Source of the DNA: Xylanimicrobium pachnodae JCM 13526 = NBRC 107786 | GTDB taxonomy: Bacteria > Actinomycetota > Actinomycetes > Actinomycetales > Cellulomonadaceae | Reading direction: 5' to 3' | DNA: 64,000 bases | NCBI GenBank assembly: GCA_001592145.1 | Contig: BCWJ01000007.1 | Span: 62,001-126,000, forward strand | Shown: positions 37,196-58,925 of the stretch, in pieces | Layout of the letters: each line of letters starts with the position of its first letter | How positions within the stretch are numbered: the first letter of the stretch is position 1 | Notes under the pieces: model-generated | Told to the model about the DNA's origin: nothing | Databases searched by the model: none | What the model saw: the letters and a program-made list of their open reading frames with translations, nothing else | Program-made: the position numbers and the translations under genes

Positions 37196-37866
37196 CCCCA
37201 CCCGAGACCGCGCCCGCGCGCAGCCCCCGACGACTCGTCGTCACCGACGTCGACTCCACGTTCATCCAGCAGGAGGTGATCGAGCTCCTCGCCGAGCACG
37301 CCGGCACCCGCGACCAGGTCGCGGCCGTGACCGAGCGCGCCATGCGCGGTGAGCTCGACTTCGCCGCCTCCCTGCGGGAGCGGGTCGCCACGCTGCGCGG
37401 GGTTCCGGTCACAGCCCTCGACGAGGTGCGCGCCGCCGTGCGCCTCTCCCCCGGCGCCGCGGAGCTCGTGGCCGAGTGCCAGCGCCGCGGGTGGGCGTTC
37501 GGCCTGGTCTCCGGCGGGTTCGAGGAGATCGTGCGGCCGCTCGCCGCGGGCCTCGGCATCGACCGGGTGCGGGCGAACCGCCTTGAGATTGCGGACGGCG
37601 CCCTGACCGGGCGCACGCTCGGCCCCGTCATCGACCGCGGCGTCAAGGCCGAGACCCTGCGCGCCTGGGCAGCCGAGGAGGGCGTGGACCTCGCCGACAC
37701 GGTGGCCGTGGGCGACGGCGCGAACGACCTCGACATGCTCGGGGTCGCCGGCGTCGGCATCGCCTACCGGGCCAAGCCCGTGGTGCGAGCCCAGGCCGAC
37801 CACGCGATCGAGGACCGGCTCGACGAGGTGCTCGCGATCGTCGACACGCTCACCCCGGCCCGCTGA
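37192..37866 (+). CDS. serB: Phosphoserine phosphatase, short form
   Basis: This 224-residue HAD-family enzyme removes phosphate from phosphoserine, the last step of serine synthesis. The nucleophile motif is [12 protein letters not shown], the second motif Ser is in GLVSGGF, the Lys is in [11 protein letters not shown] and the acidic motif is [11 protein letters not shown]. It lacks the N-terminal ACT domain found in some actinobacterial SerB proteins. The GTG overlaps the glgC stop by four bases. Confidence 0.93.
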
Positions 37867-50291: not shown

Positions 50292-51514
50292 GAGCCCGCC
50301 CTCGTCACGATCATCAGCGGGACGGCCGCGAGCGCCACGACGGTGAGCACCACGAGGTACACGGACCCCACCGCGTTGAGCGCGCGGCCGTTGGTGTGCT
50401 CCCCCATGTACTCGGGGTCGTTGGCCACCACGAGGATGGGAAGGTAGGTGAGCGGCAGCGCGACGGCGGAGAACACCACCGAGTACTCGGTGACGGCCAC
50501 GGGGTCGACGTTCGTGGCGAGCACGGCGACCGCGACGACGAGCGCGACGATCATCGAGAGGTGGAAGCGGGCGGCGTGCGCGGGCCGGCGGAACTTGCCC
50601 CACGACCAGCCGAGGTACTGCGCGAGCGTGTACCCGGTCGACAGCGCCGTCTCGAGCGCGGCCCCGAACGTCGCGGCCGCGATGCCGACGATGACGACGG
50701 CGACGAGCAGCATGCCGCCGGCCTGCGCGACGGGCAGCACGAGCTGGGCCATCGAGTCGACGGCGATGCCCCGGGGCAGCAGCACGATCGCCGCGCAGGC
50801 CGCGATCGCCACCGACAGGAACCCGCCGAGGGGGAAACCGATGAGGACGTTGAGGCGTGAGGTGGCCAGGTCGCGCACCGTCCACTTCTCCTCGACGCCG
50901 CCCGAGGAGAAGAAGAACACCTCGTACGGCGTCATCGCCGCCCCGAACAGAGCGACGGCGTAGTACCAGTAGGTGGTGGTGCTCTCGTTCGCGGGCACGG
51001 AGGGCGCGAGCCCGGCGGCGAGCTCGCCCCAGTCCGGGCCGAGCAGGAACACGGCGACGGCGAACCCGATGAGCGTCAGCCCGAGCAGGCCCGTCACGTT
51101 CTCCATCACCTTGAACTTGACCCGCCACAGCACGAGCCACACCGCGAGCGCCGCGACCGGCACCCACAACCGGTGGTCGACGCTGCTCGCCAGCTGGAGG
51201 GCGAGCGCGATACCACCCACCTCGGCGATGAGGGTCAGCACCGTGACCGCCAGGCTGGCGACGAGGTTGAGGCCAGCGGCCCGCGGGCCGAGCCGCTCGC
51301 GGATCACCTCGAACGTCGCACGCCCCGACACGGCGGCGACCTTGCCCGACATGTGCGCGAACACGCAGATGCCGACGATGCCGAGGCCCACCACCCAGGC
51401 CAGGGAGAGCCCGAACCGGGAGCCGACGACGGCGTTGGTCACCAGGTCTCCCGCGTCGAGGAACCCGCCGATGGCGGTCAGGATGCCGAGGGCGACGCCC
51501 AGCAGCCGGTTCAT
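50288..51514 (-). CDS. NRAMP-related transporter with altered metal site
   Basis: This 408-residue membrane protein has eleven hydrophobic helices in the NRAMP arrangement. Helix 1 reads GGFLDAGDLVTNAVVGSRFG, so the DPGN metal motif is DAGD. Helix 6 reads GAAMTPYEVFFFSSGG, where Mn/Fe transporters have a MPHN-type motif with a metal-binding Met. Loss of that Met and the Asn-to-Asp change are like the NRAMP-related magnesium transporters (NRMT), so Mg or another hard cation is the inferred substrate. Length is normal. The ATG overlaps the upstream lipoprotein gene's stop. Confidence 0.83.
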   Translation of the reverse strand: MNRLLGVALGILTAIGGFLDAGDLVTNAVVGSRFGLSLAWVVGLGIVGICVFAHMSGKVAAVSGRATFEVIRERLGPRAAGLNLVASLAVTVLTLIAEVGGIALALQLASSVDHRLWVPVAALAVWLVLWRVKFKVMENVTGLLGLTLIGFAVAVFLLGPDWGELAAGLAPSVPANESTTTYWYYAVALFGAAMTPYEVFFFSSGGVEEKWTVRDLATSRLNVLIGFPLGGFLSVAIAACAAIVLLPRGIAVDSMAQLVLPVAQAGGMLLVAVVIVGIAAATFGAALETALSTGYTLAQYLGWSWGKFRRPAHAARFHLSMIVALVVAVAVLATNVDPVAVTEYSVVFSAVALPLTYLPILVVANDPEYMGEHTNGRALNAVGSVYLVVLTVVALAAVPLMIVTRAGS

Positions 51515-56329: not shown

Positions 56330-57433
56330 GTGCGAGACAGCCGCCCCATCACGATGACCGACCGACTGCTGCGCCTGGGGCGGGTCGGCTGGTCCGTCGT
56401 GGGGATCGCCGCCGCGGTGTTCGTCGTCTACACCGCCGTCTCGATGCTCAGCGGCCTGGCCATCCCCCTGGTCGTCGCCGCCGTGGTGGGCCTGCTGCTG
56501 CACCCCGCGGTCGATCGGCTCCAGCGCCTCGGGGTGCCGCGCGGCATCGGTGCGGCCGCCGTGCTGGTGGGCCTGACCGTCGTGATCGGCGTCGCCGTCT
56601 GGCTCACCGTCGTCGGCGTCATCCAGCAGTCCGGGGAGATCATCGACCGCGTCACCCACGGCCTGAGCGAGCTCGCCTCGCTCGAGATCCAGTTCGCGGG
56701 CCGGGCCATCGACCTGTCCATCGTCGACCTGGGCGACGTGACGAGCGCGTTCACGGGTGGGCTCGGCGCGCTCTTCGGCTCCGTGTTCTCCGGCGCGGCC
56801 TCGTTCGCCGTCGGCACGTTCATCGCCGTCTTCTTCCTGTACTACATCCTCGCGGACTGGCCGCGGATCAAGGAGTTCGTCGCGCGGTACGCGGGGACGG
56901 GCGGCCGGTCGGGGCTCGACGTCACCGACGACGTCACGACGACGATGCGCCGCTACTTCGGCGCGATGACGATCTCGAACCTGGTGGCCGCGCTGCTCAT
57001 CTCGATCTTCGCGGCCCTGCTCGGGGTACCGCTCGCCTACACCATCGCGCTGGTCACGTTCGTGACGTCGTACGTCCCGTTCCTCGGGGCGATCTTCTCC
57101 GCCGCGTTCGCCGTGCTCATCGCGCTCGGTTCGCAGGGGCTGGTACCCGCGCTGGTGCTGCTGGTGGTGATCCTCGTCATGCAGAACGTGCTCCAGACGC
57201 TGATCCTCACCAAGCTGTCGTCCGACCGGCTGCGGTTGCACCCCATCGTGAACCTCGGCTCGACAGTGGTGGGCACGGTGTTCGCCGGGCTGCTGGGCGC
57301 GACGCTCTCGGCACCGCTGACCGTCGTCCTGCGCGACGTCATCGGGTACCCGACGCGCCCGCGCGAGGACGCCGCAGCCAGCACGGACGACGATCCGCGC
57401 CCGCGCACGGATACCGGGCAGCCCTCCTCCTAG
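56330..57433 (+). CDS. AI-2E-family transporter (PerM-like)
   Basis: This 367-residue membrane protein has about eight helices and the family pattern VVGLLLHPAVDRLQRLGVPRGIGAAAVLVG near the start, a soluble central segment (LASLEIQFAGRAIDL) and MQNVLQTLILTKLSSDRLRLHPIVNLGSTVVG before the last helices. Members export signals, ions or small molecules; the substrate is unknown here. I use the GTG with GAGGAG six bases upstream. Eight more codons give an ATG as alternative. Confidence 0.87.
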   Translation: MRDSRPITMTDRLLRLGRVGWSVVGIAAAVFVVYTAVSMLSGLAIPLVVAAVVGLLLHPAVDRLQRLGVPRGIGAAAVLVGLTVVIGVAVWLTVVGVIQQSGEIIDRVTHGLSELASLEIQFAGRAIDLSIVDLGDVTSAFTGGLGALFGSVFSGAASFAVGTFIAVFFLYYILADWPRIKEFVARYAGTGGRSGLDVTDDVTTTMRRYFGAMTISNLVAALLISIFAALLGVPLAYTIALVTFVTSYVPFLGAIFSAAFAVLIALGSQGLVPALVLLVVILVMQNVLQTLILTKLSSDRLRLHPIVNLGSTVVGTVFAGLLGATLSAPLTVVLRDVIGYPTRPREDAAASTDDDPRPRTDTGQPSS

Positions 57434-57493
57434 GCTCGTCGACGGCCCGGCCAGGAGTCGCGCACCCGACTTCGGACCTCAGGAGGTGATCAC

Positions 57494-57634
57494 GTGGAAC
57501 CTGCGAGTAGTAGCGGCGAAACCCGCCCCCCGTCTCCTTTCCACTCCTCACCTCCGGAGCTTCGCCATGCCCATGACCGCCACCGCCCTGCTCGACGTCG
57601 CCGGCGTCGAGCTGCTCAAGACCTCCCTGTCTGA
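57494..57634 (+). CDS. Proline-rich upstream ORF overlapping the start of mgtE
   Basis: AGGAGGTGATCAC at 57481-57493 is the exact complement of the 16S rRNA 3' end and stands seven bases before a GTG. That GTG opens a 46-codon frame (MEPASSSGETRPPSPFHSSP then PELRHAHDRHRPARRRR) that is +2 relative to mgtE and runs 68 bases into it. It begins Glu-Pro and carries two PP pairs upstream of the mgtE ATG. Acidic and proline-rich leader peptides such as MgtL regulate Mg transporters in Salmonella; a comparable role here is inference. The leader SD can also pair with TCACCTCC at 57548-57555. Confidence 0.5.
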   Translation: MEPASSSGETRPPSPFHSSPPELRHAHDRHRPARRRRRRAAQDLPV

Positions 57635-58925
57635 CGCCGGTCTCCTGCAGACCGTGCAGACGCTGCACACGCTGCCTGCCGACGAGCAGGTGCTCCACTT
57701 CCGCCTCCTGTCCAAGGACAAGGCGCTGGCCGTGTTCGAGCAGCTCGACACCGGTCAGCAGCAGAACCTGCTGCGCTCGTTCACCCACGAGGCCGCCATC
57801 GAGGCCGTCGAGGCCATGGCGCCCGACGCCCGGGTGCGCCTGCTCGACGAGCTGCCCGCCTCGGTGGCCAAGCGCCTGCTCGACTCCCTGTCGCCCGAGG
57901 AGCGCGCGGCCACCCACGTGCTCATGGGCTACGAGCCCGAGACGGCCGGCCGCATCATGACCACCGAGCTGGCGTCGCTGCGCCGCGACCTGACCGTCGC
58001 GGACGCCCTGACCCGGGTGCGCCAGCAGGCCGCGGACACCGAGACGATCTACACCCTCTACGTCACCAGCCCCACGCACCGGCTCGAAGGGGTGCTCTCG
58101 CTGCGCGAGCTGATCATGGCTCCGGAGGATGCCCGGGTCGAGGACATCATGTCGCGGCGCACCGTGAGCGTGACCACCGACACCGCCCAGGAGGAGGTCG
58201 CCAAGCTCCTCGCGGACCTCGACCTGCTCGCCGTCCCCGTCGTCGACCGGGAGAACCGCCTGGTCGGCATCGTCACGATCGACGACGCCGTCGACATCCT
58301 GGAGGACGAGGCGACCGACGACATCTTCGACCACGCCGGGCTCGCGGACATCACGTCCAACGAGTCGGACCGCTCCGAGGTGCTCGTGGGCGGCAGCCTG
58401 TGGAGCATCTGGAAGGTGCGCCTGCCGTTCCTGTTCATCACGCTCGTCGCCGGCGTGCTCGCAGGCCTGGTCATCGAGAGCTTCGAGGAGGCGCTGTACG
58501 CGATCGCCGCGGTGGCCGTGTTCATCCCGCTGATCATGGACATGGGCGGCAACGTGGGCACCCAGTCGTCGACCGTGTTCGCGCGCGGGGTCGTGCTCGG
58601 GCACATCCACCTCACGCAGTTCCGCCGCCACTTCCTCAAGGAGATCGGGGTCGGTCTCAGCCTGGGCGTCCTGGTGGGCACCCTGGCCGGCGTGATCGCC
58701 GCCGTGTGGCAGGGCATGCCGCTGCTGGGCCTCGCCGTCGGGCTCGCCCTGACGGCCACCATGACGCTCGCCTCGCTGCTCGGCTTCCTGGTGCCGTTCG
58801 TGCTCGTCAAGCTCAACGTCGATCAGGCCGCCGGGGCCGCGCCGATCATCACGTCCATCAAGGACGTGGCGGGCCTGCTGATCTACTTCGGCTTCGTGAC
58901 CCTGTTCCTGTCGCACCTGATGTAA
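57567..58925 (+). CDS. mgtE: Magnesium transporter MgtE
   Basis: This 452-residue Mg2+ channel has the cytosolic helical N-domain (residues ~1-135), two CBS domains (EDIMSRRTVSVTTDTAQEEVAKLLADLDLLAVPVVD in segments), the plug helix and five membrane helices with the pore motif MDMGGNVGTQSSTVFARG. It imports Mg2+ and closes when cytosolic Mg2+ is high. I start at MPMTATALL, with a modest CCGGAG ahead. The longer in-frame alternative would start inside the SD of the upstream ORF. Its 3' end overlaps the opposite MFS gene by 68 bases. Confidence 0.94.
   Translation: MPMTATALLDVAGVELLKTSLSDAGLLQTVQTLHTLPADEQVLHFRLLSKDKALAVFEQLDTGQQQNLLRSFTHEAAIEAVEAMAPDARVRLLDELPASVAKRLLDSLSPEERAATHVLMGYEPETAGRIMTTELASLRRDLTVADALTRVRQQAADTETIYTLYVTSPTHRLEGVLSLRELIMAPEDARVEDIMSRRTVSVTTDTAQEEVAKLLADLDLLAVPVVDRENRLVGIVTIDDAVDILEDEATDDIFDHAGLADITSNESDRSEVLVGGSLWSIWKVRLPFLFITLVAGVLAGLVIESFEEALYAIAAVAVFIPLIMDMGGNVGTQSSTVFARGVVLGHIHLTQFRRHFLKEIGVGLSLGVLVGTLAGVIAAVWQGMPLLGLAVGLALTATMTLASLLGFLVPFVLVKLNVDQAAGAAPIITSIKDVAGLLIYFGFVTLFLSHLM

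Follow-up and report, generated by a model that had tools for sequence, protein, structure and literature searches.

A short open reading frame (ORF) overlapping the start of the Mg2+ transporter gene mgtE in Xylanimicrobium pachnodae is very probably a conserved, Mg-linked leader, as judged from sequence comparison. Its best reading, with a probability of roughly 0.55, is an MgtL-like cis-acting leader, a ribosome-based Mg2+ sensor that would act on mgtE through the overlapping upstream ORF (uORF); this reading is preferred because the uORF is conserved within the genus and acidic leaders are tied to Mg transporter genes elsewhere. The ORF lies on the forward strand of a 64,000-nucleotide (nt) stretch of contig BCWJ01000007.1 (assembly GCA_001592145.1, positions 62,001 to 126,000), which is the window referred to below and the frame for all coordinates. 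The ORF, its Shine-Dalgarno (SD) sequence, the overlap, the conservation among genus members, and the specific recurrence before Mg transporters are properties of the sequences themselves.

The leader ORF and its relatives in the genus

The leader SD, AGGAGGTGATC (57481..57491, forward strand), has 11 nt complementary to the 3' tail of 16S ribosomal RNA, and the GTG at 57494 lies seven bases 3' of the AGGAGG within it. The leader ORF (MEPASSSGETRPPSPFHSSPPELRHAHDRHRPARRRRRRAAQDLPV, 57494..57634, forward strand) has this GTG start and 46 codons; its translation begins MEPASSSGETRPPSP, has Pro-Pro pairs at residues 12-13 and 20-21, encoded ahead of the mgtE start, and runs 68 nt into mgtE in a different frame. 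mgtE itself (57567..58925, forward strand; ATG at 57567, alternatively a start at 57573) encodes a Mg2+ transporter with MgtE_N, CBS, and MgtE domains (Pfam) and has a weak SD, GGAG (57556..57559, forward strand), within CCGGAG. The first-pass annotation described the same arrangement, with the best SD before a GTG out of the mgtE frame, a 46-residue peptide with a Glu-Pro start and two Pro-Pro pairs before mgtE, a stop 68 nt inside the gene, and only a weak CCGGAG for mgtE; its coordinates are confirmed and the translation agrees. The preceding ORF ends at 57433, 60 bases 5' of the leader start codon.

Matches of at least 10 nt to the complement of the 16S tail occur at four places on the two strands of the window, against about 0.9 matching 10-mers in shuffled sequence. 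Two of these places, at 37271 on the forward and 17191 on the reverse strand, have no start codon in the scanned stretch behind them, and for the fourth, at 51301 on the reverse strand, only the letters were examined; AGGAGGTGATC ranks first among the scanned SDs that are followed by a start codon. No Rfam family, the M-box riboswitch (RF00380; 0 matches) included, reaches gathering score in the window, and a consensus scan of 57300-57700 finds neither an intrinsic terminator nor a sigma-70 promoter.

Among 221 genomes from the family, eight have this mgtE type (E <= 1e-90), and the eight belong to a single one of its 25 genera, a genus represented by 11 genomes, the source genome included. 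An order sample of 297 genomes has it once. In six of the eight, a uORF with its own SD overlaps the start of mgtE in another frame, and five of these six have an acidic codon 2: the peptides begin MEPASSS (window), MEPASSC (L004), MEPASSR (L008), MDADSRSR (L007, with acids at D2 and D4), MDLPSSS (L009), and MSGESRC (L005). The window, L004, and L008 share the block GGAGGTGATC(C)ACGTGGAACCTGCGAGTAG amid diverged flanks; the SD AGGAGGTGATC is common to L004, and L008 differs in its first base. The conserved leader start GTG GAA CCT GCG AGT AGT (57494..57511, forward strand) uses codons unusual for the genome. The five relatives thus named have the same uORF arrangement in different letters, and the M-box is absent from all eight genus mgtE loci.

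Beyond about residue 7 the genus peptides diverge. A small trans-acting protein, with the transporter as one conceivable target, would account for a short conserved start, and the mycobacterial uORF2, which lies behind an M-box, has a homolog outside that context (PMC12810186); such a role is quite improbable, given that conservation is limited to about the first seven residues and that the remaining genus frame is an out-of-frame reading of the mgtE start region. All three MEPASS leaders have Pro-Pro pairs, at shifting positions.

A second idea of the first-pass annotation was that the leader SD and TCACCTCC (57548..57555, forward strand) could pair, giving two exclusive structures. In the window GGAGGUGA does pair with UCACCUCC, and GUGGAA with UUCCAC (z -1.80, with 6 of 200 shuffles as good; z -1.49 in a second fold test). 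The folds of L004 (z -0.19, 1.22, and -1.12 in three pieces) and L008 (z 0.17) are no better than shuffles, and TCACCTCC is absent from both loci. A conserved SD/TCACCTCC switch was therefore rejected, since the nearest relatives have neither the fold signal nor the segment. In the comparison of the upstream regions, proposed earlier as a check, the uORF frame is conserved in six of eight loci, the Pro-Pro positions are not fixed, and the pairing segment is not shared.

Three of the genus proteins, the MgtE of L008, L009, and L010 (366, 379, and 357 amino acids), are without most of the N domain, and no match to residues 15-110 of the window MgtE is found near these three mgtE genes in any frame; L008 and L009 keep the leader despite the shortened MgtE. 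A second mgtE type of the genus (L002 and L012-L017, about 38% identity) has no shared SD-led uORF, the SD-led uORFs there being two GC-rich ones in L016 and those of L013.

The genus also has a leader before corA. Among 15 CorA-family matches found in the genus, six belong to one type, and five of these six genes are preceded by a 12-amino acid ORF, M[RH]SEPPSSP[CRS]RG, behind an SD of AAGGAGGTGG or AGGAGGTGG. The loci are L291, L292, L295, L296, and, in the source genome itself, L294 (MHSEPPSSPRRG, near base 1153 of that locus, on G000:C12 and outside the window); at the sixth, L293, the block is present with its frame shifted by one base. The E-P-P-S-S of this leader, written on AGT AGT, resembles the E-P-A-S-S of the mgtE leader on AGT AGT. 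The gap behind the corA leader is poorly conserved; the block is also well conserved as nucleotides, so a reading as peptide only is not proven. CorA genes of the second type (L300-L302), and L297 and L298, have no such leader.

Acidic leaders before Mg transporter genes of other bacteria

The 80 relatives of the window mgtE retained from the genome collection have record titles naming gut Bacillota, Enterococcus, Spirochaetota, and others; such titles are the main source of taxon names for loci outside the genus. Because the type is restricted to one genus of its family and has relatives in gut bacteria of other phyla, it was likely gained horizontally. A comparison set of 87 mgtE loci (at least 45% identity, at least 250 nt of upstream sequence, duplicates removed) was searched for uORFs of 6-70 amino acids with an exact SD of at least 6 nt and Asp or Glu at codon 2, out of the mgtE frame, with in-frame uORFs excluded. 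Such uORFs occur at 14 loci, compared with 0.55 in shuffled upstream sequence, and seven of the 14 overlap the mgtE start. Looser SDs or in-frame cases add MDPDPGSYR and MDADPDSYR (Spirochaetota-titled) and MDPDGSRQ (a gut record).

The M-box is found in 53 of 100 sources scanned, 10 of which are paralogs of other mgtE types; in eight sources it lies more than 700 nt from mgtE. An acidic uORF led by an SD of at least 5 nt lies within 350 nt of mgtE at 17 of the 48 mgtE loci with a same-strand M-box, and all 17 are positioned behind the M-box. One locus, L070, has three tandem M-box riboswitches (1088-1260, 1336-1508, and 1584-1755) ahead of a single mgtE.

A survey anchored on the M-box instead of on mgtE covered 249 genomes from the phylum of a Bacillota-titled record. 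The riboswitch scores above cut-off in 87 of them; 90 of 96 places were read, with six left out (the L088 locus among them), and the 90 loci were thinned to 84. One locus, L183, is cut at a contig end, making its M-box offset unreliable, and gave no leader. Within 350 nt behind the M-box the 84 loci have 77 SD-led short ORFs, 42 with Asp or Glu at codon 2, and at least one acidic SD-led short ORF is present at 39 of the 84 loci. An acidic codon 2 occurs in 2.15 of 18.25 short ORFs per shuffle, in none of eight on the reverse strand, and in 37 of 358 SD-led ORFs of at least 100 amino acids. With an SD of at least 8 nt the fraction is 23 of 32, compared with 0.05 of 0.45 per shuffle. The acidic ORFs are also placed regularly, 40 of the 42 beginning 48-143 nt behind the M-box. 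At thiamine pyrophosphate (TPP) riboswitches, the control, acidic short ORFs are found at two of 68 loci (thinned from 70), and both appear by reading to be ThiS-like proteins; the difference between 39 of 84 and two of 68 gives a Fisher p of about 2e-10, uncorrected for relatedness.

Ten genes behind M-box leaders were scanned by Pfam, and five encode CorA, three P-type ATPases, and two Nramp proteins; further genes are MgtE by similarity. At L258, one of these ATPase loci, codon 2 of the uORF is not acidic. In Bacillota and Spirochaetota, SD-led M[DE] leaders show a strong and specific association with Mg transporter genes. A narrow scan that started from the motif, in 30 chosen genomes, gave 29 matches compared with 17 for a reversed control pattern; the short matches with a plausible long gene behind them lie before mgtE in three cases (L151, L161, and L174) and before another gene, which looks like that for ribosomal protein L10, in one (L149). 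The pattern misses many known leaders, so the scan reveals little about other genes.

These counts bear on the simplest account of the window ORF, a chance open frame behind a chance SD in GC-rich DNA. High G+C content does leave long open frames, yet the contrasts of 14 of 87 with 0.55 and of M-box with TPP loci, and the same arrangement in different letters in five genus relatives, make this account extremely improbable.

In the phylum of the window, M-boxes are found in 21 of 296 genomes. By the same criteria, 11 of the 25 Actinomycetota M-box loci read have an SD-led peptide of similar look and 14 have none. MESDPG[HS]RC precedes two Nramp genes, and MPEDGE/MPDDGE and MPEGNS peptides also occur. 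Six MS..DSP peptides from two genomes (L266, L268, and L287-L290) lie behind M-boxes and use AGT Ser codons; their second residue is Ser instead of an acidic one, and their seventh is Pro, as it also is in the printed mycobacterial uORF2 (PMC12810186). The recurrence of an acidic, Pro-containing leader start before Mg transporters of several phyla suggests that the ribosome may serve as a Mg gauge beyond enteric bacteria.

Codon choice and the proposed mechanism

The likeness among leaders extends to synonymous codons. In 208 ortholog-like pairs, which are not independent, the number of pairs with an identical or synonymous codon is 49-132 at codons 2-6, 31 at codon 7, and 7-23 at codons 9-20; the conservation of codon 2 is by construction, since it was preselected as acidic. 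Codon 2 is written GAT, GAC, or GAA, and therefore the residue rather than the codon seems to be favored there. Codons 2-8 of 55 leaders (41 M-box-anchored and 14 mgtE-anchored) were compared with ordinary SD-led gene starts: AGT makes up 37 of 54 Ser codons (27 of 122 at the ordinary starts), CCT 29 of 55 Pro codons (16 of 74), and CGA 9 of 22 Arg codons (17 of 137). With the leaders thinned to 46, the p values are 1.8e-10 for AGT, 0.016 for CCT, and 0.024 for CGA, and no significant preference is seen for Asp, Gly, or Glu codons. AGT is found 33 times in frame at leader codons 3-7, compared with 0 and 1 in the other frames. A general codon bias of gene starts is unsupported as the cause of this signature, as SD-led ORFs of at least 100 amino acids in similar loci differ; one guess is that weak or wobble decoding heightens the sensitivity to Mg2+.

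The same codons are rare in the window, where AGT makes up 8 of 837 Ser codons (1.0%) and CCT and GAA 3.8% and 6.3% of their codon sets. These rare codons and the Pro-Pro pairs at residues 12-13 and 20-21 are what a classical stalling leader would use, with ribosomes halting at Pro-Pro pairs or at rare codons for Ser and Pro if EF-P, tRNA charging, or tRNA supply is limiting, and with Mg2+ not the signal. That explanation does not account for the association with Mg transporters and M-boxes, which TPP loci do not show, or for the acidic codon 2 (Asp or Glu) seen across many phyla, and the positions of the Pro-Pro pairs are not conserved; it is considered improbable.

In the MgtL-like mechanism that we infer for the window, the leader is translated, and the effect of Mg2+ on elongation sets the fate of the mgtE start. 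Ribosomes would load at the very strong leader SD. With ample Mg2+, they would read through the weak start site of mgtE and on for another 68 nt, keeping mgtE initiation low; since the two frames overlap and the SD is strong for the leader and weak for mgtE, full translation of the leader is expected to block mgtE initiation. When Mg2+ is scarce, the acidic/Pro start of the chain (M-E-P..., on codons like CCT and AGT) would destabilize the ribosomes so that they depart early, the mgtE start would be freed from occlusion, and the transporter would be made. Where a leader lies behind an M-box and does not overlap its gene, the output step must be a different one.

Several observations weigh against this mechanism. 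Within the genus, L006 and L010 carry this mgtE without a leader, and the L005 leader has Ser, not an acid, at codon 2. In the wider sets, the same rules find no such uORF at 73 of the 87 loci with mgtE and at 45 of the 84 with an M-box. The window leader has a single acidic residue (Glu2) among its first eight, whereas MgtL has two early acids (EPDP), and open frames are common in high-G+C DNA, so that overlap alone is weak evidence. The first-pass annotation had proposed Mg2+ sensing by an acidic/Pro leader combined with the SD switch; genus conservation and the association with Mg transporters favor the sensing leader, and the switch is the part that did not hold.

Control might instead be transcriptional, with leader translation gating the access of Rho to a C-rich, G-poor stretch of the leader ORF (57519..57556, forward strand; 22 C and 3 G per 38 nt), as at enteric mgtA. 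The C-minus-G excess there, 19 per 38 nt, is attained in 0.07% of the 38-nt windows of the locus and has equally extreme counterparts in L004 (16) and L008 (18), and Rho is employed both at enteric mgtA and at the mycobacterial M-box (PMC11282234, PMC12810186). The skew is less in L007 and L009 and missing in L005, and Pro/Ser/Thr codons by themselves yield such skew; the stretch could possibly load Rho or could be a mere product of Pro/Ser codons. Ribosome loss at low Mg2+ would moreover bare the stretch and lower mgtE, the wrong direction for an importer unless an RNA fold intervenes. A Rho-dependent attenuator is therefore thought unlikely, although it is the foremost of the alternatives weighed here.

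Comparison with known Mg2+-responsive leaders

The closest likeness is to MgtL, the leader of mgtA in E. coli and Salmonella, which is also a short ORF with its own SD and begins Met-Glu-Pro on GAA CCT. Its EPDP motif leads to ribosome drop-off at low Mg2+ (PMC11282234). The E. coli mgtL codons, GAA CCT GAT CCC ACG CCT CTC CCT CGA, include the CCT and CGA found in the leaders described here. The window leader reads GAA CCT GCG where mgtL reads GAA CCT GAT, so that Ala replaces Asp4 (in L004 and L008 as well), and it precedes an MgtE-type gene. mgtL is 140 nt apart from mgtA and acts by Rho termination (PMC11282234), whereas the window ORF overlaps mgtE.

Control at the level of transporter translation, as proposed here, is also the mode of mgtQ of Salmonella mgtB, in which the early acidic residues Asp2 and Glu5 reduce leader translation and increase transporter translation (PMC8092293). 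mgtQ has 8 amino acids and alternative stem-loops (PMC8092293); the window leader has Glu2 only and Ser5, and no conserved stem-loops of this kind were found. CorL, a uORF before enteric corA whose translation lowers expression of the gene, is said to contain fewer Pro and acidic residues (PMC11552253) and is likened by description only. The M-box riboswitch governs the same kinds of genes and is absent from the window and the eight genus loci. The mgtE motif of PMC11109978 is an RNA structure of Thioalkalivibrio, and the accessible part of PMC13009471 has no match for mgt.

Within the Actinomycetota, the mycobacterial M-box uORF2 (Rv1805A; PMC12810186) and the uORF of M. abscessus mgtE (PMC4974804) are likewise strong-SD uORFs in Mg-linked leaders. 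These lie behind an M-box and are called mycobacteria-specific; the window has no M-box and a different peptide. The first-pass annotation had taken a uORF device before an actinobacterial mgtE to be new, which these printed uORFs, one of them at mgtE, make true only in part. In the literature covered, which leaves out most subscription papers and preprints, no report was recognized of acidic leaders behind Bacillota or Spirochaetota M-boxes, or of the mgtE and corA leaders described here.

The established examples of ribosome destabilization as a Mg2+ sensor are a few leaders of enteric bacteria. If those described here act in the same way, the ribosome would be a general bacterial Mg2+ gauge, in many cases placed downstream of a Mg2+ riboswitch; the conserved uORF of mycobacteria, which lacks an assigned role, would gain an explanation; and the synonymous codon signature could be tested directly with an identical peptide in different codons. 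On balance it seems somewhat probable that MgtL is one local member of a pan-bacterial class of ribosome-based Mg2+ sensors, with a near-maximal SD, an M[DE]x[DGP] start, and AGT/CCT/CGA codons, in which synonymous codon choice is part of the sensor; the class would occur behind M-boxes or alone, before genes for the unrelated families MgtE, CorA, P-type ATPases, and Nramp, in Bacillota, Spirochaetota, and Actinomycetota, and would count the mycobacterial M-box uORF among its members.
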